Shown here: positions 14,283 through 64,000 of the stretch, in pieces
How positions within the stretch are numbered: position 1 is the first letter of the stretch
Layout: each line of letters begins with the position of its first letter
DNA from: Vittaforma corneae ATCC 50505
Lineage: Eukaryota; Microsporidia; Nosematidae
Assembly: GCF_000231115.1 (NCBI RefSeq)
Contig: NW_006889835.1
Coordinates: 123,459-187,458, forward strand
Direction: 5' to 3'
Length of the DNA stretch: 64,000 bases
The notes under the pieces: model-generated
The model's input: the letters and a program-made list of their open reading frames with translations, nothing else
Told to the model about the DNA's origin: nothing
Database searches by the model: none
Made by a program: the position numbers and the translations under genes

Positions 14283-15191
14283 ATGCTGTTTCTGATTATT
14301 TTTAGTGGAATATCACATGCTTTTAAATATTTCGCACCGAGTGTCTACGATTTTGCTGTAGACCCTGAGAATAAAAAATATCAAGAACACTCTGGATTTG
14401 TGCATAGGCATTACTACACTGAGGATAAGAATCACTTCGGAGAAATAGCCTTAATGACATTGAACACGCATGTTGAGAGTGATATTGTTGAGAAAAATCA
14501 AAAAAATGGCATTTTAGCATTGATTGATCTGCATCATCCAGCTGTATTTGCACTTCAGGGACTTACCCAGTCTGTGCTTTCAGGAGTACAAAAAGAAGCA
14601 AGTGAGCACTATGAAGTTGCATGCACAGATGCCCTATTTAAAGAAATAAGGACAAACAAGTTGGAAGTAATGCCTATTTTCTACGATTCAAATTCATTAA
14701 TAAAGATTAAAGAAAGTATAATTGAACCAGAAAAGTATAAAAACCAGGCCTATGCGTGTGTGGTTGTGTTCTATGATAAGCTCATACAAAAAATATACAC
14801 AGTCATCAATGTGGATCTTCCAAGTACAGATCCAAAGGTTATTGACTCACAGGTATACAACATTATTCACAACTTGGAAAATTCAAAATTCAAAGATTTC
14901 CCCGTGTTTGTAGTAGGAACAATCAATACAATGAGTGAAGAATTAAGAAAGCTAGTTAAAAGGGACATGAAAAACCTTATTGATCAAGACAAAAACAATA
15001 TTGGGTTGCGCAAGACAACATTCCACAACCACGGCACTGTAAACGATAATCTACAAAGAGATTTTATACTTTTAAAGGATAAAGCCAAAGAATTCAAGCT
15101 AAATTATTCAAGGATATTGTCAAGGTATTCAAAGATGAGCTTTGAACATTTCCCAGTCTTTTCAATTTTAAGCCGCAGCTCAATCAATTAA
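14283..15191 (+). CDS. Secreted endonuclease/exonuclease/phosphatase-fold protein, probably inactive
   Basis: 302 residues with a clear N-terminal signal peptide (MLFLIIFSGISHA) and the block order of the EEP (DNase I/AP-endonuclease) fold: LNTH, FALQGL, VVGTIN, RDFILL and a terminal FEHFPVFS. In active members these are xxNI/TH, xxLQE, GDFN, xDYI and SDHxP. Here the metal-binding Glu of LQE is Gly, the Asp of GDFN is Thr, and the Asp before the final His is Glu. The fold therefore seems kept and catalysis lost. The frame is open to a TTG at 14265, but the ATG at 14283 begins the signal peptide. Secretion suggests a host-facing or vacuolar role, which is inference. Confidence 0.65.
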   Translation: MLFLIIFSGISHAFKYFAPSVYDFAVDPENKKYQEHSGFVHRHYYTEDKNHFGEIALMTLNTHVESDIVEKNQKNGILALIDLHHPAVFALQGLTQSVLSGVQKEASEHYEVACTDALFKEIRTNKLEVMPIFYDSNSLIKIKESIIEPEKYKNQAYACVVVFYDKLIQKIYTVINVDLPSTDPKVIDSQVYNIIHNLENSKFKDFPVFVVGTINTMSEELRKLVKRDMKNLIDQDKNNIGLRKTTFHNHGTVNDNLQRDFILLKDKAKEFKLNYSRILSRYSKMSFEHFPVFSILSRSSIN

Positions 15192-24283: not shown

Positions 24284-26242
24284 TTAATGATAGTAATTAT
24301 ATCGAGGTGGTTCCCGACGACGAGCATTAATTTTTCGAGTCGATGGCCTTCCTTTGATACGGTTGAATACAATCAGAACAGTGTCTGTCATAATCAAAAT
24401 CCAAATAGCAATCATTGCCATTTTCTTTTGGACTTCCAATGCTGCAAGCTCACTCAAAATTTGGTATTCTTTTTCTGTTTGTGCTGATCTGTTGAATTTT
24501 TCAAAAATTATGTCCAGCACTGGTCTGAATCCTGTTGTTTCAAATGAAATCTTTCTGAAATTTGGATCATTTTGACTTACAGCAACGTTGTACAATTCAA
24601 ATAGCCTATCAGTCCTTTCCCTTAGTTTGAATTTAGAATAGCTTGCTTCTTTAAATGCCCTTTTTATCTGTTCAACTGCCACACTAAGCTGCTTTTCATC
24701 TTTGATTGCTGACTTGCACGATGACAAGTTCTTTTCTGTTACAAATAATACAAGTTCCAACATTCTGTCCAGCCGTGCTTCAGGATTCTCGAAAAATTCG
24801 GGAAACTTCTGCCTAACAGCAACGTCCAAGTCTTTCTCTTTCTTCTTTGTAGCAATGTTTTTAATTTTTATGTCTATTTCATTATTCTTGTATTCACTCG
24901 AAATAGCATCAATGTCTGATTCCAGGGGACTAAGAATAGTGGTGCATGATCTTAAGTGGTCTCTCACGTGTTCTTCCTGCTTGTCACCTCTACTAAAAAA
25001 TCTGGCAAACGGCCAGGCACGGCCACTGAAGAATGACTGGTTAGTCTCAGAAAGAGGAAGATCGAAGAGTTCTGCAAATTCACCTGTTTTTATGAATTTA
25101 TCGTCAAGAGAATAAAGAGTGATGTTTGAAGATATAAATGCCATATCATCGATAAATGTTCGGGCATTTTCGCGTGTAATGCTCCTTTTCTGTACAGCTA
25201 ACAGCATTAAATCAGTACAAATTTTGAATAGTGAATTGATTGACCTGATAATAGAAAGCGTTCTAAAGACATGTCTAAAATGTATTTCCATGGTTGCAAA
25301 TCGTACATCTATCAAGTTTATAAGAATCATCACATTTATGTTGAACGACTTAAGGACCGAATGCATCTCCTGTTTAAGAAAATTGAATCTTTGAATCTTT
25401 GAATCAGTTAATGAATGAAGCTCTGTTGGATCAATCCAATTCTTCATAACACTATGCGAAATATAGTTTAATTTCAAAAGACTAAGATATGCATTTCTAA
25501 TGAGCTCTAAAATATCAGGATAGCTACTGTTAGGTGCAAATGCTCGGATGCTATTAAGGTAGTCAAGATGCATTACAAAAAGCGAACAGATCTCTGAAAA
25601 TGGAAGGACTTCATCTGTTTCAGTTGACTTTTCTTCCTTTAGAAATGTCAAGAGTGTATCAAAGCTGTTCAAAGCACTATGAAGCTCTTTGGAATGGCCA
25701 TCATCTCTAATTTCTGACTTACCACCTAGCCTAAAAAACTGCTTAAGAGCCTGAAATGCTGTTACAGACTCGTGCTCATTTGCAAAGCGCACTCCTTTTT
25801 TACGAAGCTCTTCAATAAAGAAGGAAAATGCCTTATGGCCATGACGGAAATGTGCAAAAAGTTCAAAAGGCTCATCTGGATGAAAACAGGAACTTATGTG
25901 TGGAGCCACCCGATTTTTAAGATATCCACGAAGATTTTCCGTCTTCAAATCGTTAATATCGATGCTGAATAATTTTTTAAGTTTAGAATTAACAATACTC
26001 AGATATTGATCATAAACAATAAAAGGCAATTCAAAGTCTTGTGAAATGCCATTTTTTGCAAGAACTGTGTGATATCTCCCTGCATCTGCTCTTATTGCAT
26101 TAATCATGGATTTAAGCCTTGAATATTCATCTAAGAATGCACGGGTTTCAGAATCATCATCCTGTGGACTATCATGTGTTTCGTTCCTTGCTCTTCTAGC
26201 ATTCCTTTTTTTGCTCTTATTTCCCCTATTTCTTCTTCCCAT
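24284..26242 (-). CDS. Helical membrane protein with C-terminal anchor and PPRY tail; probably the 3' part of a longer gene
   Basis: 652 residues, unrecognised. The N-terminus is very basic (GRRNRGNKSKKRNARRARNE). The body is helical, and a membrane segment near 608-628 (MIAIWILIMTDTVLIVF) is followed by an Arg-rich tail ending PPRYNYYH, which holds a PPxY motif. The ATG has no CCC start signal. Its first 112 bases overlap the end of the next upstream open frame, and one added base in the A7 run at 26206-26212 joins both into one 820-residue protein with a signal peptide. I think the joined form is the real gene. No enzyme motif is visible. Confidence 0.65.
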   Translation of the reverse strand: MGRRNRGNKSKKRNARRARNETHDSPQDDDSETRAFLDEYSRLKSMINAIRADAGRYHTVLAKNGISQDFELPFIVYDQYLSIVNSKLKKLFSIDINDLKTENLRGYLKNRVAPHISSCFHPDEPFELFAHFRHGHKAFSFFIEELRKKGVRFANEHESVTAFQALKQFFRLGGKSEIRDDGHSKELHSALNSFDTLLTFLKEEKSTETDEVLPFSEICSLFVMHLDYLNSIRAFAPNSSYPDILELIRNAYLSLLKLNYISHSVMKNWIDPTELHSLTDSKIQRFNFLKQEMHSVLKSFNINVMILINLIDVRFATMEIHFRHVFRTLSIIRSINSLFKICTDLMLLAVQKRSITRENARTFIDDMAFISSNITLYSLDDKFIKTGEFAELFDLPLSETNQSFFSGRAWPFARFFSRGDKQEEHVRDHLRSCTTILSPLESDIDAISSEYKNNEIDIKIKNIATKKKEKDLDVAVRQKFPEFFENPEARLDRMLELVLFVTEKNLSSCKSAIKDEKQLSVAVEQIKRAFKEASYSKFKLRERTDRLFELYNVAVSQNDPNFRKISFETTGFRPVLDIIFEKFNRSAQTEKEYQILSELAALEVQKKMAMIAIWILIMTDTVLIVFNRIKGRPSTRKINARRREPPRYNYYH

Positions 26243-26745
26243 TCTAGGCTGTCTGATGCTTGATCCGAACTACCTAGCAAGTCGTCTAAACTTGGATATA
26301 ATCTACCCTGATCCCCATTATCATCATCAGTAATCGGCAGTTTCTCGGTAGATTCGCCCTCCTCTTCTGGATAAAACATTCCTGGTTCATTACGATTGAC
26401 ATCTCCAGCTCCTTGTTGGAAATAGGGAGACGGATACTGTGGCGTTGACTGTCCATAAAATCCAAACTGTGGATTTGGCGGCTGTTCGCTCAAATTTACA
26501 TATCCAGTCTCTTGTCCAAGGCTTGAATAAGGAGGTGGTGGATATTGCGGTACATTATAATTGGTAAATCCGTACTGGCTAGGATGCTGGTATGCTTCAT
26601 TTTGATAACCATAAAAAGGAGAATATGCTGGTGGTTGGTCATCATATGGTGGCGCAGTTGGAGTTATAATAGGAGTATTATTTGACGTGTGCTCCGTGCA
26701 CTTTGCTAGAGAAAAAAAATATACTAAAATATGCATGCTTTTCAT
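26131..26745 (-). CDS. Secreted Pro/Tyr-rich protein with PTAP, PPxY and LYPxL motifs; probably the 5' part of a longer gene
   Basis: 204 residues. The signal peptide is MKSMHILVYFFSLAKC. Then follow PTAP (29-32), PPAY (38-41), PPPY (70-73), a Tyr/Pro/Gln-rich stretch to about 115, an acidic part, and LYPSL (149-153) next to an acidic dileucine DDLL. PTAP binds TSG101/Vps23, PPxY binds Nedd4/Rsp5 WW domains and LYPxL binds ALIX/Bro1. The start signal is complete: AAAAAATTTTT at 26759-26769, CCCC at 26754-26757, then the ATG at 26745. The frame probably continues into the helical membrane protein downstream through a -1 shift at the A7 run. Binding to ESCRT partners is inference from motif sequence alone. 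Confidence 0.7.
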   Translation of the reverse strand: MKSMHILVYFFSLAKCTEHTSNNTPIITPTAPPYDDQPPAYSPFYGYQNEAYQHPSQYGFTNYNVPQYPPPPYSSLGQETGYVNLSEQPPNPQFGFYGQSTPQYPSPYFQQGAGDVNRNEPGMFYPEEEGESTEKLPITDDDNGDQGRLYPSLDDLLGSSDQASDSLEWEEEIGEIRAKKGMLEEQGTKHMIVHRMMILKPVHS

Positions 26746-26753
26746 TGCTTTTT

Positions 26754-26769
26754 GGGGCAAAAAATTTTT
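26754..26769 (-). promoter_or_regulatory. AAAAAATTTTT plus CCCC start signal
   Basis: On the minus strand, an A6T5 block, one base, then CCCC, eight bases before the ATG of the PTAP/PPxY protein. The strong form of this signal suggests high expression. Confidence 0.6.
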
Positions 26770-27128: not shown

Positions 27129-28676
27129 TTAATTAACAAGAAATCCGAATTGGAACGAAAGAGACTCTACTCTATTCCTTTCTTCCTCGCTTAGCACGGG
27201 CGTTTCTAATTTCAAATATGATCTTAGAAAGTATAAAATTACCCCATGCTTGACTATCAAGTCTCTACATTCACAGAGTATTTGCGTGTGGTACTCTTTG
27301 GATCTGTCAATAATCTTCACTGCTTCCATCAGTATTTTTGTCTCCATGTTAATAACACCATCATCCACACCGTTTAGTACTTCAAATGACAGTTTAAAGC
27401 CTTTCACAATTTCCTGAATTTCAGCGTCCTTTTTCTCTCCAATTCTCTTCTTGAGCTGTTTCATATTCCTACTCTCCCTCGATCCCAGGCATGAAGATAT
27501 GGTTTTGACGTCTTTGGCTTGATCCCTCAAAAACTCAAACCCGTGTCTTTCGGAACTAATCAAATGCCTTTCTGTCTTCTTTAAGAGAATGTCTTGTGCT
27601 TTCTTCGTCTCTCTTTCATTAAATATACTCAAGAAAACGTTAAATATTTCCACACACTCATCCACACTGGCTGTTGAAACAAAAAAGTTAAATAAATCAG
27701 TTTTTAAATCAGACAATGACTCTCGGAACTCTCTTATGCTACTAGCTGTTGTGTTTATAGATTTTGTAAAGTCTGCAATCTGCCTAAGTACGATTCTACA
27801 ATATTTTGGATCAGTTTTACAAAGCAAGCTGTAAAACATTTTGAAGAAATGATGTATTGCTTCCTCCACCTGTTCTTCTTTGAGATATTCCAGGACCTTA
27901 ATTATAGACTTGAAGAGGTATTTATAATATTCATCGGACACTCTCATTCTGGAGTATGTTGATTCTTTAAAGTTAACTAGGATGGTGTTCATAATTTTCA
28001 ACCTTTTTTGATCAAAAGTGTAGTCATTTTGGTATGACGCTGCTGTAAGGTAAATGTCAGTGAGATTACACATCTCTTCAAATGGAGTTTCTTCTCCAAC
28101 AATCTTTTCATATACTGCCGTTAAGAAATCTATTATTTCTGGTTTAATTGCGTCTAGTTTTTTGGAATTTTCAACCAATTTCCTGTACTTTCCAAGGGTT
28201 TCCATGAAAATGGAGAAATTTAATATATTTGATCTTAGCATTTCCTTGAGATTCATCATTGCTGCATCCTCGCTCACTTCAATAGTAACAGACTCCTCAT
28301 CGATTTCGTCCAGGTTGATATTATGCTTTTTTAGTAAGCTTTCAAACTTTGACACTATGAATGATATTGAACTGCTAGAGTTTGATGAGGCGATATTATT
28401 CTTGGAATAATCATCGCAAATCTGCTCCATCGTGCCTTTGCAGCTGATAAATTTGGCAAAGTTCTTAGGAATAAGATAGTTGAGTCTTGCTTTTGTTTCT
28501 GAAATACTCTTAGAAAAGGCAATGAGTACATCTTGTAATTCAAGAATTGAAAAGTCCATGTATGAAGAATTAATAAAATCTTCTGGGTCTGGAAATTTGT
28601 AGTCCTGGCTATTCTTTATGCATGCTTCATCGGGTATTGCACTATTGCTCTTGAGATCATATCTAGTAGTGTCCAT
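27129..28676 (-). CDS. Large helical protein of the accessory block, lineage-specific
   Basis: 515 residues, unrecognised, rich in helix and charge, with scattered Cys and no membrane helix at the C-terminus. The chosen ATG is 10 bases after CCCC. Upstream of it the same frame stays open and would encode a hydrophobic, signal-like stretch (AFIIIGSISSSPLLA), but only from a GTG and no ATG; it could be chance or a real signal peptide behind a sequence error or unusual start. The gene is divergent from the next one, sharing a 159-base promoter region. Confidence 0.65.
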   Translation of the reverse strand: MDTTRYDLKSNSAIPDEACIKNSQDYKFPDPEDFINSSYMDFSILELQDVLIAFSKSISETKARLNYLIPKNFAKFISCKGTMEQICDDYSKNNIASSNSSSSISFIVSKFESLLKKHNINLDEIDEESVTIEVSEDAAMMNLKEMLRSNILNFSIFMETLGKYRKLVENSKKLDAIKPEIIDFLTAVYEKIVGEETPFEEMCNLTDIYLTAASYQNDYTFDQKRLKIMNTILVNFKESTYSRMRVSDEYYKYLFKSIIKVLEYLKEEQVEEAIHHFFKMFYSLLCKTDPKYCRIVLRQIADFTKSINTTASSIREFRESLSDLKTDLFNFFVSTASVDECVEIFNVFLSIFNERETKKAQDILLKKTERHLISSERHGFEFLRDQAKDVKTISSCLGSRESRNMKQLKKRIGEKKDAEIQEIVKGFKLSFEVLNGVDDGVINMETKILMEAVKIIDRSKEYHTQILCECRDLIVKHGVILYFLRSYLKLETPVLSEEERNRVESLSFQFGFLVN

Positions 28677-44090: not shown

Positions 44091-47000
44091 TTAATAGCTA
44101 GATGTAGATATAAATGAGTCCAAATTGACAGTTATTGCCTTTGAGACATCATTGGTTTTATAAACACCCACCAATGTTCTTGCCTTTTCAAACATATCAT
44201 CCCTCAAGCTAATAATAATAAACTGGGCATCAACATGCAAAAGGTATTGAGAAATAATACTCACATTCTTAAAATCAAGAGCTGCATCAATCTCGTCCAT
44301 AATGTAAAGCGAACTGGGTTTATACTTGTGAAGAGCAAAGATCAAAGCAAGCGAGCTGAGCGTTTTTTCTCCTCCGCTCAAATTTGAAATCTGTTTCCAC
44401 GACTTTTTTGGGGGCATTATACTCAGAACAATTCCATCCCTAAATGGATTTAGATAATCAAGAAGGTCAAGTTCTGCATTGCCACCAAAAGTAATCAAGC
44501 TGAAGATTTCCTTGATGTTCTTGTTGATTGTATTAAACCCATCCATGAACTTAGTCAATCGTTCTGAGTTTAAATTCTCAAGCTCAACTTTCATTTGATC
44601 AAGTTTGGATCCAACAAAATCGCAAGAAGCTTTCAGTTCGTCATAGAGTTTCTTTGCAGATTCATATTCAGAAAAGATAACCCTGTAAATTTCTAGGTCT
44701 TCCTCAGCAGAGAAATCTTGATCTGATTTTATACTTTCTTTTAGTTTTTTAAAGTTAACAGCTTCCTTGCTATTCAACTCCTCAATCATCTCCCTGCTTT
44801 TTTGTTTAAGCTCAACATCATTCATTTCATCAATAAATCCAATACTGTCATCAAGCCTCAGTATCCTTTCCGGATCAATCATTAAGAGTAAATTATTAGT
44901 CATAGCATATTCATTTATAAGCTCTTGCCTCTTTGTCCTACAATTTTCCTTAACTTTGGACACATCCTTGAGGGCTTCTGCAATTTCTTCAATTTTGGCC
45001 TTGTACTCAGCTTCTTGATGATAGTCACTACCCATATCAGTTCTAATCTGATTAATCTGATCCTGAATCATGCTATGCACTTTAAGAGCAGCATTGTATT
45101 CTTCTTCAAGCGTACTCAGAATATGTACGTCTGGCAGTAACTCAGCCTCCAAAGCATCGTACTCTTTTTGTAACCTTGCATACTCTTTTTCAAGAGTAGA
45201 GATGTTATTTTGGGGTTCGAACGAAAGCTTAATTTTGATTTCCTGGTTGATTTTTTGCAAATAATCAATTTTCTCGTTAATCAGCTGAATATCTGCTTTT
45301 AATTCCATCACTCTTGGTGGTAGTTTAATATTTTCAAGCTCTTTAATTTCATTTCTCAACTTAGAAATGTTATTTTCCAAAACCTTGTATTCTTCCATGT
45401 CAATATTGGACTGTCTTCTCACAATGTCTTTGTTTAGCTCATCAATCTGATTTTTAAGAGAACTTAGCATCGTCTTTTGAGTTTCAACAAAGCGAATTTC
45501 TTCAAGCTGATCCATTTTCTTCTCTAATAGTGTTTGCATATTGCTATAGATTTGTTCTAATTCTGCAAAACTTTTTAGCTTTTTAGTAACCTTCCCACCA
45601 CTCATAATTCCGCTTTTTTCAAGAAGCTTTCCATCTAATGTAACTACTCGCCTTCTTACTTTTCCAAAAGCTAGTGTCCTTGCATCTTCTAAGCTTCAAC
45701 ACACAGGGTATCCTTAATAGCAAAGTAAAACATTTTATAAATCTTCCATCTGTCTTGATTCTCTTATAAAGCAATTCGGCCTTAATATTGCTAGGCAAAT
45801 TTTCTGCTTTAGGTTCTGGCAGCTTATCTAAAATGATAAAGGTGGTTCTATTAAGTTTCTTTCTATTGATAATATTAATGCACTCCTCTGCAGTACTAGT
45901 TTTATCCACAACAATGCTATTCAATGACTTAGTAGACGCTTCAATTGCATCTTCATACTTTTTTTCAAATGTGCCTAGGCTTTTCAAGACGCCAAATACT
46001 CCTGGAACATTCTTGAGATTTTCAGATACTTCTTGTTCTCTTTTGTATCCCTGCTCAAGATATTCAAACTCTTCTGCCCTGTGCTTTCTACGGTTAATTT
46101 CATGCAATGTTGCTGAAATGTCGCTTTTAATGTTGGAAATTTCATTTTCAAGAGCAACTTTTTCATTTGAAATATTCTTGATTGCGCCAATCTTGCCAAT
46201 ATTCTGCTGTATTGATTTAACCTTCTCTTTTAACGCATTTATTCCAGTGATTTCAACATTAAAGCCATCCTTTCTTTCAATCAATCTGAGCAGTGTTTTT
46301 TCAATCTGATTTTTTCTAAAGTTTGTCTGCTCAACCTCGCTGTATTGATCAAATTCCTTACTTTTACTCCTAATTTCTTCTTCAAATATTTCGATTTCTT
46401 TGCAGTTATCTTCATAGCTCTTCCTTAAAATAATGGATTCCTTTTCCCAGCTTTTAATACTTTGTTTGCTATCTTCAATATCCTTGAAAGTCTTATCCAA
46501 GTTTTTTTCGATTCTCTTTTTTTTCTGATCCTTTGATCTATTTTCTCTCTCAATTCGGTTATGTTCATTTCTGTATCGAACTAGCCCATCCTCTTTGTGC
46601 TTCAAATTTAATTTAGATGCTTCAACTTCCAGCCTTTTCACACTTTTACTGGCCATTTCATGTTTCTCTGCTAATTTTAATAGCTTAGTCTCAATAATAG
46701 CTCTTTCATCTAATAAGCCCACTTCTTTTCGCTCAGCAAGTGCCTGCTTAACTAGCACGATCCTGTTTTTCATAACCAATGATTCATTCCTAAACATCAA
46801 TAAATTGGCCTTCTCGTCTCTTCTTCCTTTTTTGAATAAATAATCAGTTTCAACAAATTTTAAATTACTCATGGCAGAATCTAACTCTTCCTGGCGTGTC
46901 TTTATATCATTTTCGAGGGTTTCAATTCTTGGTTTATAGTCTGATGTCCCGATGCAATCTTCAATATATTCAAGAAGGTCTATGGGGCTCATCATAGCAA

Positions 47001-47430
47001 TTGTTTCAATCTCTCCCTGAAGAATAAGGAACCTGTTATTGTCAAGATCAATGCCATTAGTCTTTAGAAACTCAATCGACTCAGATGCTGATATTTCGCT
47101 TCCATTCAACTCATACTTACTTACAACAGTCCTAACAGTACCAGCATCATCTATTCGTCCCTTGAGAGATCTAGACAGTTTAAAGCTATTGAAAACAAGC
47201 TCGACACAGCATTCAGAGCATCCAGTGGTAATTAAGTCTTTTAGTATTGCATGCCTCATTTTCTTGGCTTTAAATCCTAGAACAAAGAGAATGCTGTCGA
47301 TAATGTTGCTCTTTCCACTCCCATTCGGCCCAACAATAGCCGTGAAGTGATTATCCAAAGCTGAAATGGTGTGTAAACCTTTGAAACTCTTGAAGTTTAG
47401 AATGTTTATAAACTCCAGCTTTAAGGACAT
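44091..47430 (-). CDS. SMC4: Condensin ATPase Smc4, reading frame broken twice
   Basis: The first open frame (47430-45619) has the Smc4-type head, Walker A GPNGSGKS at 34-41 and FVLGFKAKKMRHAILKDLI, then a coiled coil and the hinge start. The second (45605-44091) has the rest of the hinge exit, coiled coil, LSGGEKTLSSLALIFAL signature and MDEIDAALD Walker B. Between them the family sequence CFYFAIKDTLCVEA and EDARTLAFGKVRRRVVTLDG can be read in two successive other frames. One base added in the A4 run 45727-45730 and one at 45689-45694 restore a continuous protein of about 1113 aa. Smc4 pairs with Smc2 in condensin. The ATG touches CCC. Confidence 0.88.
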
Positions 47431-53392: not shown

Positions 53393-54657
53393 ATGAAAAT
53401 AGAGAGCATCTACCACTCAAAAGAAGCTAGAAGAAAAGAATGTAAAGGTGACAAATCAGACAGAAGATACTCCAAGGATCCAGTCCATCACCCAATGCTT
53501 TTAGAAAGAGAATATGTCAGAGCACTGAATGCCGTTAAAATTGAACGCATGCTTTCAAAGCCCTTTATAACAGCGCTTTCACATCACAGAGAAGGAATCA
53601 ATAGACTGTCAAAAGATTATAGCTCAAATGTATTTGTATCTTCCAGTTACGACAACAAAGTTGTGGTGTGGGATCTTTTCTACAAAAATATCATCTTTGA
53701 AAAGAAATACGAAGGCTTGATTAATGGAATAGCAGTGAATACAACTGATAATAAGAACAATATATTTGTTTCGCAGAACAAAAAAGTCATTCTTGAGAAT
53801 AGTCTTGAGTTTGCAGTTGAGTCTCCAGTTTCAGGTATTGATTTTTCACAAGATCTTTGCGTTGGCCACAGTCTTGGCATTTCTATATTTGATGTTGACA
53901 GAATTACCCCAAAGATCTCGTATTTGAATGATGATATTACCTTTGTAAAGTACAATAGATCGTTCAAGTACATCATAGCTGGGCTAAGTAGATTAGCTAT
54001 AGATCTCTATGATAATAGATCTAGTAAAGGATTTATGCAGATTGATCACTCTGGTGCCAACTGTGTATCCTTCAATCCTCAGCAAGGCTATCTTTTTGCA
54101 TGTGGCAACGAGGATGGCAATGGGTATCTGTACGATATTAGGAACAGCATCAAGCCTATTGAGACATATAGAGGACATACGAATGCCGTTGTAAGTATTT
54201 CATTTAGTCCTGATGGGAAAGAGGTTGTGACAGGTAGCTTTGATAGAACAATCAGAATATTTAAGATGGATGAGAGAAAACCAGGGATTGCTACTACAAC
54301 GATAGAATGCAAATTGTGCATGCAGTTGAATATTCAAATGATGGAGGCTTTATCATTTCTGGTAGCGACGATGGGTCTTTGCGACTCTGGAAAGCTCACG
54401 CCAGTAAAAAGGCAGGACCTGTCTCAAGGTTTGAAAAAGAGTCATTAGAATACACAGACGCACTTAAAGAGAAATTCAAGTATGTTGGTGAAATTTCCAG
54501 AATTAGTAAGCATAGGTTTTTGAATAAAGAGATAAAACGCGAGATGAGGACTAAGCATGAAATGTACGAAGGACAGCTAAGAAGAGCCGCCAAAAGGGAA
54601 AAGGAAGCAGAGTTCAAATTAAAAAATGATTTGGAAGTGAGTTCTGATGAAAGCTAG
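53393..54657 (+). CDS. SOF1: U3 snoRNP protein Sof1 (DCAF13), one frameshift
   Basis: The N-terminal REYVRALNAVKIERMLSKPF matches Sof1 REYTKALNATKLERMFAKPF. Seven WD40 blades follow (e.g. FVSSSYDNKVVVWDL, FACGNEDGNGYLYDI, VTGSFDRTIRIF). The first frame runs to 54448, but homology stops near 54280. From there the second frame reads CYYNDRMQIVHAVEYSNDGG, IISGSDDGSLRLWKA and the basic C-terminal KRISRHR-like tail (ISRISKHRFLNKEI). One base added in the A4 run 54277-54280 restores a 421-aa protein. Sof1 acts in 18S rRNA processing. The ATG at 53393 is chosen; the frame is open further up only to a TTG. Confidence 0.9.
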
Positions 54658-54844
54658 CTGTCTATTGCATTAAAACTCATATAATTCATATGTGGTAAAA
54701 AGAGCAATTCAGATGGCTTTTGGGTCTATGTTCTTATGTTATCAGCTGTTGATTAAATACACATCTTAGCACTGTTCATCTATTCTTATCCATATGCATT
54801 TGGTTCTCTATCTTCAACTTTTGTGTTTTCTGTTTTTGTACCCC

Positions 54845-63257: not shown

Positions 63258-64000
63258 ATGAGAAAAACTATGAAGGATAAAATGTTGAAGCTAATGTTAG
63301 TAATTGTAGGACTGGTAAATAGTTTGACATACAATAGGACTATCGACCCATGCCCAACAGTTCAAGAGCCAGAACTGGATATAAAGAGCCATACTGGAAA
63401 TTTTTCTGATAAAGCTGAATCGACTTCAACGGATGATGACTGGATTTTATTGCCCAGAAATTTATCTGAAGTACCAACAATTAAATCCTATGACCCCATG
63501 AATCAAATTAAGGATTTAAAAGCCTCTGAAAGCCAAAAGCTAGTTGAAAGTCAACAGTCTATCAACACATCTGAGCATGAATCTATCAAGAAGTCTGGAA
63601 CATCCGATGAGGATGGGTCTACTGCAATGGATGACTGGTGCATTATAAACAAGAATCTATCAGGGCTACCTGAAATAGAATCTTCCACTTTAGAAGATCA
63701 AGAAGATTCAAATGACAGCGAATCTACTTCGATAAATGATTGGACTCTTTTACCTGAAAATATGTCTGATGTATCAACAATTGAGTCTTATGATCCTGAA
63801 GCACCAACTAAATCAGCCAGGGAGACTGATTTGAACTTTGACTTTATTGAGAGTACGATTAGGTCTAGATCGTTAAAATATGAGCCGCTCCACCCTGGGC
63901 GTCTAGTCTATCTTCTTAATCAGATATTCGATGCATTGCCACTCGGTCGTAAGAACCGTGTGTTGCCGCTTAAAGATACTGTCCTTGGTATTTTCAGAAT
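63258..64000 (+). CDS. Secreted protein with three DDWxLLP repeats, 3' end outside the window
   Basis: Open from the ATG to the window edge, 247 codons. A signal peptide (KLMLVIVGLVNS, residues 10-22) is followed by a disordered acidic Ser/Thr-rich region with three copies of a motif of about 22 residues, consensus DDWxLLPxNLSxVxTIxSYDP, at 59-80, 125-143 (degenerate) and 160-180. After residue 195 the character changes to LKYEPLHPGRLVYLLNQIFD, probably the start of a folded part. No known family. The start signal is complete (AAAAATTTTT, CCCC, ATG). Confidence 0.65.
   Translation, partial: MRKTMKDKMLKLMLVIVGLVNSLTYNRTIDPCPTVQEPELDIKSHTGNFSDKAESTSTDDDWILLPRNLSEVPTIKSYDPMNQIKDLKASESQKLVESQQSINTSEHESIKKSGTSDEDGSTAMDDWCIINKNLSGLPEIESSTLEDQEDSNDSESTSINDWTLLPENMSDVSTIESYDPEAPTKSARETDLNFDFIESTIRSRSLKYEPLHPGRLVYLLNQIFDALPLGRKNRVLPLKDTVLGIFR

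Follow-up and report, generated by a model that had tools for sequence, protein, structure and literature searches.

That an intracellular eukaryote can mimic viral late domains is already documented for Toxoplasma: GRA14 is reported to recruit the host endosomal sorting complex required for transport (ESCRT) via PTAP and YPXnL motifs, and in a particle-release assay its motif region could stand in for the late domain of a virus, the PTAP being needed for TSG101 recruitment (PMC8700025). Here, we describe a possible counterpart in the microsporidium Vittaforma corneae ATCC 50505, found in a stretch of 64,000 nucleotides of contig NW_006889835.1, the whole of which was analysed and is called the window below. 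On its minus strand, the open reading frame (ORF) P0001 joins a signal-peptide-like start with a P[TS]AP, two PPxY and one LYPxL motif. As in GRA14, P[TS]AP and YPXnL elements would lie outside the parasite on a secreted membrane protein of an intracellular eukaryote; those of GRA14, however, are C-terminal and were shown to face the host cytosol, whereas those of the window protein are N-terminal, accompanied by two additional PPxY and only predicted to be exposed. The likeness is one of motif type and placement, and kinship is not claimed.

Another Toxoplasma protein, TgGRA8, contains PPxY and PPPPGF elements and binds ALG-2 (PMC13419437, preprint). It resembles the window protein in its N-terminal and central proline-rich elements with PPxY, in a predicted C-terminal transmembrane helix and in an element number that varies between relatives, but PPYP and PxPGF are missing from the window protein, and its relative P0008 has a single PPYPGF. 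Viral late domains, as generally known and as described in PMC10159163 and PMC8700025, likewise bring the same motif classes near one another in a segment that is probably flexible. In contrast to these, no viral kinship was seen, and the window protein is probably anchored, starts with a probable signal peptide and would approach the host cytosol from the exterior of a parasite cell. Animal adaptors of the LITAF/NDFIP type are membrane proteins with neighbouring PSAP and PPxY motifs in their N-terminal part; compared by motif from their general description, they match the window protein in having P[TS]AP and PPxY near the N-terminus, but theirs are cytosolic in their own cell. To our knowledge, microsporidian remodelling of host membranes is largely an open field. 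Among the papers listed by our literature search, judged mostly by titles and opening lines, there was no microsporidian late-domain case, and no paper in the collection joined microsporidia with PTAP; a case may exist in papers beyond these. An ESCRT-pathogen review does not mention microsporidia (PMC10159163).

An earlier note on this DNA had placed PTAP, PPAY, PPPY and LYPSL on the ORF 26131-26745, which lies on the minus strand, and all four were recovered at the residues it gave (Table 1). The presence of all three motif classes in one protein proved unique within a sample of 193 non-nested ORFs of at least 100 residues, drawn from the window and from twenty 10-kb pieces of contig C1, which together cover 264 kb, or roughly 9%, of the 2.9-Mb genome in 35 contigs (spurious ORFs and ORFs cut at piece ends are counted). 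P[TS]AP occurred in one of these ORFs, at least two PPxY in one and LYPx1-3[LI] in three; P0001 alone had more than one class, and none of the other 192 joined two. The same note had raised chance as a concern. In 200,000 shuffles of residues 17-172 of P0001, the frequency of P[TS]AP was 1.6%, that of one or more PPxY 27%, that of two or more PPxY 3.6% and that of LYPx1-3[LI] 2.1%, while all three classes coincided in 8.5e-5 and all three with two PPxY in 1e-5. Shuffling residues 17-211 of P0008 gave all three classes in 4.2e-4, a result that is not independent of the first because both proteins are homologous. Coincidence of the full set is thus rare, but the concern stands insofar as composition helps the motifs to occur: P0001 has the highest proline plus tyrosine content of the sample (26% in its richest 150 residues, whereas no other sampled ORF with 150 or more residues exceeds 15%).

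The motif segment appears to belong to a larger gene. Directly downstream of P0001, and overlapping it by 112 bases in a different frame, lies the ORF P0002. Both are spanned by P0008, the single relative found, a predicted protein of 858 residues known from its protein sequence alone: its first ~210 residues match P0001 with an E value of 1e-23, and its remainder matches P0002. The homology of P0001 ends near residue 172, and nothing in P0008 corresponds to its last ~30 residues. Codon preference favoured the P0001 frame from the beginning of that ORF, if weakly across the proline- and tyrosine-rich part; the two frames scored about equally at 26250-26160, and from 26205-26115 onward the P0002 frame was preferred. 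CCC-like signals are reported to mark the starts of microsporidian genes (PMC2803860). In the window, CCC or GGG stood no more than 30 nucleotides upstream in 22 of the 35 gene starts examined, compared with 19% of random 30-mers; these starts were hand-chosen from 42 ORFs of at least 130 residues, leaving out 44091, 45833, 48305, 50863, 60577, 62302 and 63258 (the second part of an SMC gene, antisense overlaps, unsure starts and the window end). The P0001 ATG has such a signal, whereas the 30 nucleotides upstream of the P0002 ATG contain neither CCC nor GGG. Because P0008 is intact, codon preference changes frame and the CCCC is found only at the upstream ATG, P0001 and P0002 most likely represent a single gene that is interrupted by a frame break in this assembly. 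What had been taken for a secreted protein of 204 residues would instead form the N-terminal portion of a longer protein that is probably anchored in a membrane, with ~30 residues read out of frame.

From its N-terminus, the joined product would consist of the signal-like start, the motif segment rich in proline, tyrosine and glutamine, an acidic block (YPEEEGES...LYPxLDxLLG), a polybasic linker, a body of ~570 residues, a hydrophobic helix and a basic tail. The first 16 residues resemble the signal peptide assumed earlier, with a basic residue near the beginning, then a hydrophobic core and finally small residues, and SLAKCT is retained in P0008; a stronger N-terminal core was found in 10% of the 193 sampled ORFs. 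The linker reads KSKKR in the window protein and KKKKKR in P0008, and its Lys-Arg pair is a possible processing or membrane-binding site. According to the positive-inside rule, positively charged flanks of a membrane helix mark its cytosolic side. Given this rule and the signal-peptide-like start, we place the motif segment outside the parasite membrane; the product is most likely a type I surface membrane protein, with its tail probably in the parasite cytosol. Pfam assigned no family to P0001 or P0002 (E 0.1) and only one below the cut-off to P0008 (E 0.27). A PDB profile search gave one chance-level match (E 0.55), and the ~570-residue body had no significant sequence match in the PDB.

Searching a collection of 5.8 billion proteins with P0002, in which the 7991 candidates with the most words in common were scored, returned only P0008 and P0007, a shorter call from the genome itself. 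P0002 and P0008 are identical at 397 of 643 aligned positions (62% in the body). P0001 alone retrieved only itself (57 candidates scored), a two-sequence profile retrieved nothing beyond the known relatives (7687 candidates scored), and neither ORF had a second match elsewhere in the genome. The gene thus probably encodes a lineage-restricted microsporidian surface protein of type I, of which P0001 is the N-terminal part; its restriction is provisional, since the collection searches detect only relatives sharing exact short words and the database's coverage of microsporidia is uncertain.

P0008 carries the same set of motifs, with PSAP at 27-30, PPPY at 76-79, PPAY at 106-109 and LYPNL at 188-192, while the linkers between them drift and change in length. 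In the N-terminal alignment, which was the same in three MAFFT modes, 86 of 168 aligned residues are identical (51%). The anchors of PPPY and LYPxL are fully retained in register, those of PTAP at three of four positions (opposite PPAP) and those of PPAY at two of three; the exact PPAY of P0008, within DQPPAYSP, belongs to the second copy of a duplicated unit. Overall, 12 of 14 motif anchors are identical in register, compared with 64 of 137 other residues (Fisher p 0.005) and with 25 of 45 occurrences of the same letters P/T/A/Y/L elsewhere (p 0.04, marginal), residues 1-17 and gapped non-motif positions having been dropped. In the same line, a simple drift simulation with a single overall identity rate and no insertions retained P[TS]AP, two PPxY and LYPxL in 0.2% of 100,000 runs. 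Hence, the idea that orthologues would keep the motifs while their linkers drift holds for the set in the one relative at hand, but not for the register of PTAP and PPAY.

We then considered which proteins might read these motifs. Family searches of the parasite genome, albeit with weak controls, gave no match for UEV, WW, BRO1, ALIX_LYPXL_bnd or Snf7, whereas the same tool found HECT in two genes, two Vps4_C matches and uL3; Pfam showed no WW in either HECT protein. These negatives are consistent with the absence of RSP5, the fungal Nedd4, from five of the six microsporidia in Table 1 of PMC5913265, and of Vps25 from E. cuniculi as stated in PMC1579232. As no readers were found in the parasite genome, those of the host are the more plausible partners. 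One of the HECT-domain proteins (529 residues with two HECT stretches; L004:409-1998 (+), contig C12) has an N-terminus that looks signal-peptide-like by eye, making it a possible secreted HECT ubiquitin ligase.

The leading reading, which we hold tentatively and which is unproven, is that a host-facing motif array on a parasite surface protein recruits host ESCRT. The N-terminal segment would be displayed outside the parasite plasma membrane, with the basic tail in the parasite cytosol, and would meet host TSG101, Nedd4-family ligases and ALIX if the parasite lies in the host cytosol; alternatively, it could be released by a cut at the conserved Lys-Arg pair. Its motifs would then form a multivalent late-domain array able to concentrate host ESCRT on the surface of the parasite, where the machinery might wrap, shed or pull in membrane, for instance during uptake of host cytosol or exit by budding. 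A bolder version is doubtful, if possible: that the parasite carries the full viral late-domain triad on its outside and, having lost its own ESCRT-I, ALIX and Nedd4 readers, captures host ESCRT from without for cytosol uptake or for budding out through the plasma membrane. In Enteropsectra longa, spores were seen to bud off the host plasma membrane on exit, and how they are pinched off was left unresolved (PMC5179134). This is a known microsporidian process in need of such machinery, and one that the present organism may or may not share. The functional claim is plausible and testable, though unproven; if the motifs bind, the host-ESCRT model could be tested directly, and the locus would represent an independent use of a viral strategy in the fungal lineage.

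Several observations weigh against host ESCRT recruitment. In Toxoplasma, mutating the PTAP of GRA14 stopped TSG101 recruitment, yet the motif mutants took up host protein normally, and P(S/T)AP is present in 33 secretory proteins (both PMC8700025). PPxY is cheap in a proline- and tyrosine-rich segment, as its frequency of 27% among the shuffles illustrates. The start of P0008 is a weaker signal peptide, 27% of the 193 ORFs having a stronger core, and whether the segment may be exposed to the host cytosol at all is judged from the amino acid sequence. The domain negatives are weakly controlled: UEV and BRO1 were detected in none of 14 control genomes, and WW, Snf7 and ALIX_LYPXL_bnd only below the cut-off; divergent short domains may also escape family searches. 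Conservation amounts to one comparison with one relative, and its tests are post hoc. In P0008, moreover, PTAP is out of register and PPAY lies within a repeat that is absent from the window protein. Finally, a constraint unrelated to ALIX may hold the LYPxL block, because conservation extends beyond the motif into LDxLLG and YPEEEGES.

Among the alternatives, a structural surface or spore-coat protein fares best, although we regard it as unlikely. The segment would then be an extracellular spacer, self-associating or cross-linked through tyrosines, and the motifs by-products of repeats rich in PPPPY and YP. Such a role would suit the signal-peptide-like start, the C-terminal helix and the extreme proline plus tyrosine content, as well as the two copies of a QPP + YQQYG unit that lie 60 residues apart in P0008 like structural repeats (one duplicated unit; the regularity of repeats in P0001 was judged by eye). 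The neighbouring proteins P0003 and P0005 look similarly built and have none of these motifs. P[TS]AP and LYPxL, in turn, are rare even at this composition, as the shuffles indicate, and both recur in P0008; the LYPxL block, moreover, sits in an acidic part without proline-tyrosine repeats.

It is improbable that the segment instead binds host partners other than ESCRT, such as WW, SH3, ALG-2 or LD/YxxPhi readers, with one or two of the motif matches being incidental. PPPPY, together with the PPYPGF of P0008, does resemble WW and ALG-2 ligands; YPSL also fits YxxPhi, and LDDLL fits the start of an LD motif. The ALG-2 type, however, is not common to both proteins, since the window protein has only PQYP in place of PPYP or PxPGF, and for the window protein itself ALG-2 binding was ruled out on these grounds.

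The earlier note had also allowed for endogenous sorting, which we retain as a quite improbable rival: an adaptor with no true signal peptide and a C-terminal anchor, its motifs engaging the parasite's own trafficking from the parasite cytosol. In P0001 the start has a short hydrophobic core that does not stand out among the sampled ORFs, that of P0008 being weaker still, and Vps4_C matches occur in the genome; the weakly controlled searches that found no reader domains, and the lack of a Pfam WW match in the HECT proteins, weaken this proposal, as does the strongly basic C-terminal tail, which fits the cytosolic side.

The last alternative concerns the form of the gene and is compatible with any of these functions: programmed frameshifting, in which a deliberate ORF pair yields a short secreted motif protein and, on slippage, an anchored long form, is very unlikely, for although both frames are open and overlap around a short homopolymer run, P0008 is predicted as a single protein (known as such only at the protein level), coding preference of the short frame drops in the overlap, and other genes in the window are broken too. 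One is an SMC gene (44091-47430 (-)) in two ORFs of different frames, split just after the hinge, probably by an assembly or sequencing indel. The other is a Sof1/DCAF13-like WD40 gene, identified by eye (53393-54790 (+)), in which the C-terminal part is read in a different frame beyond ~54280, with no homopolymer run of at least 5 at 54240-54330. With these two housekeeping-type genes also frame-broken, a sequencing or assembly indel is the likelier and, in our view, most likely cause of the break between P0001 and P0002.

Table 1. Sequence features of the gene comprising P0001 and P0002, in window positions
Feature	Positions	Strand	Remark
P0001 ORF, 204 residues	26131..26745	-	N-terminal portion of a larger protein; out of frame past ~residue 172
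P0002 ORF, 652 residues	24284..26242	-	remainder of the same protein: polybasic start, large body, transmembrane helix, basic tail
Two-frame overlap	26131..26242	-	coding signal switches frame here; short homopolymer run inside
CCCC start signal	26754..26757	-	8 nucleotides upstream of the P0001 ATG, behind an A/T-rich AAATTT-like stretch
Signal-peptide-like start, residues 1-16	26698..26745	-	charged start, short hydrophobic core, SLAKC
P/Y/Q-rich segment, residues 17-140	26326..26697	-	probably disordered, by composition
PTAP, residues 29-32 (TSG101 UEV type)	26650..26661	-	PSAP 27-30 in P0008, three residues off register
PPAY, residues 38-41 (WW-domain type)	26623..26634	-	in-register site degenerate in P0008; exact DQPPAYSP at 104-111
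PPPY, residues 70-73 (WW-domain type)	26527..26538	-	in register in P0008
LYPSL, residues 149-153 (ALIX V-domain type)	26287..26301	-	inside conserved LYPxLDxLLG; LYPNLDELLG in register in P0008
Polybasic linker	26186..26218	-	conserved Lys-Arg pair; exact extent uncertain, being at the frame change
Hydrophobic stretch read as transmembrane helix, P0002 residues 609-626	24365..24418	-	retained in P0008
Basic C-terminal tail	24287..24364	-	ends EPPRYNYYH; VPRYNHYH in P0008

The gene is flanked by P0003 (22015-24078 (-)) and P0005 (28836-30248 (+)), each with a signal-peptide-like start and a C-terminal hydrophobic helix by eye, P0003 having a basic tail in addition. Neither had a Pfam family above the cut-off, and paralogy with P0002 was rejected (BLASTP E values of 0.88 and 0.14; hhalign probability 0.1% each). 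Adjoining the locus, the gene at 27129-28676 (-) gave a weak match to the exocyst subunit Sec5 just below the Pfam cut-off (E 0.00013). The assignment of the genome to the microsporidia was supported by its uL3, whose best PDB matches were 7qep, 6zu5, 6rm3 and 7qca, presumably all microsporidian ribosomes. The best alignment displayed fell well short of identity, so that none of the four derives from the present organism. An RNA-dependent RNA polymerase-like gene was also recognised by eye in the window.

At 14283-15191 (+), a signal-peptide-like protein resembles the endonuclease/exonuclease/phosphatase fold by eye, with no Pfam match at E 0.1. Lastly, the ORF at 63258-64000 (+), continuing as L029:117-1706 (+), encodes a protein of 529 residues with a signal-peptide-like start and three acidic-W-x-x-[LI] cores in similar units (DDWILL, DDWCII and NDWTLL). 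Such cores resemble Atg8/LC3-interacting (LIR) motifs, so that the protein is a possible host-autophagy ligand. Among 188 ORF readings with 130 or more residues from the window and a further 200 kb, nested ones included, 8 contain the pattern [DEN][DE]Wxx[LIV], and only this protein has it in more than one copy.

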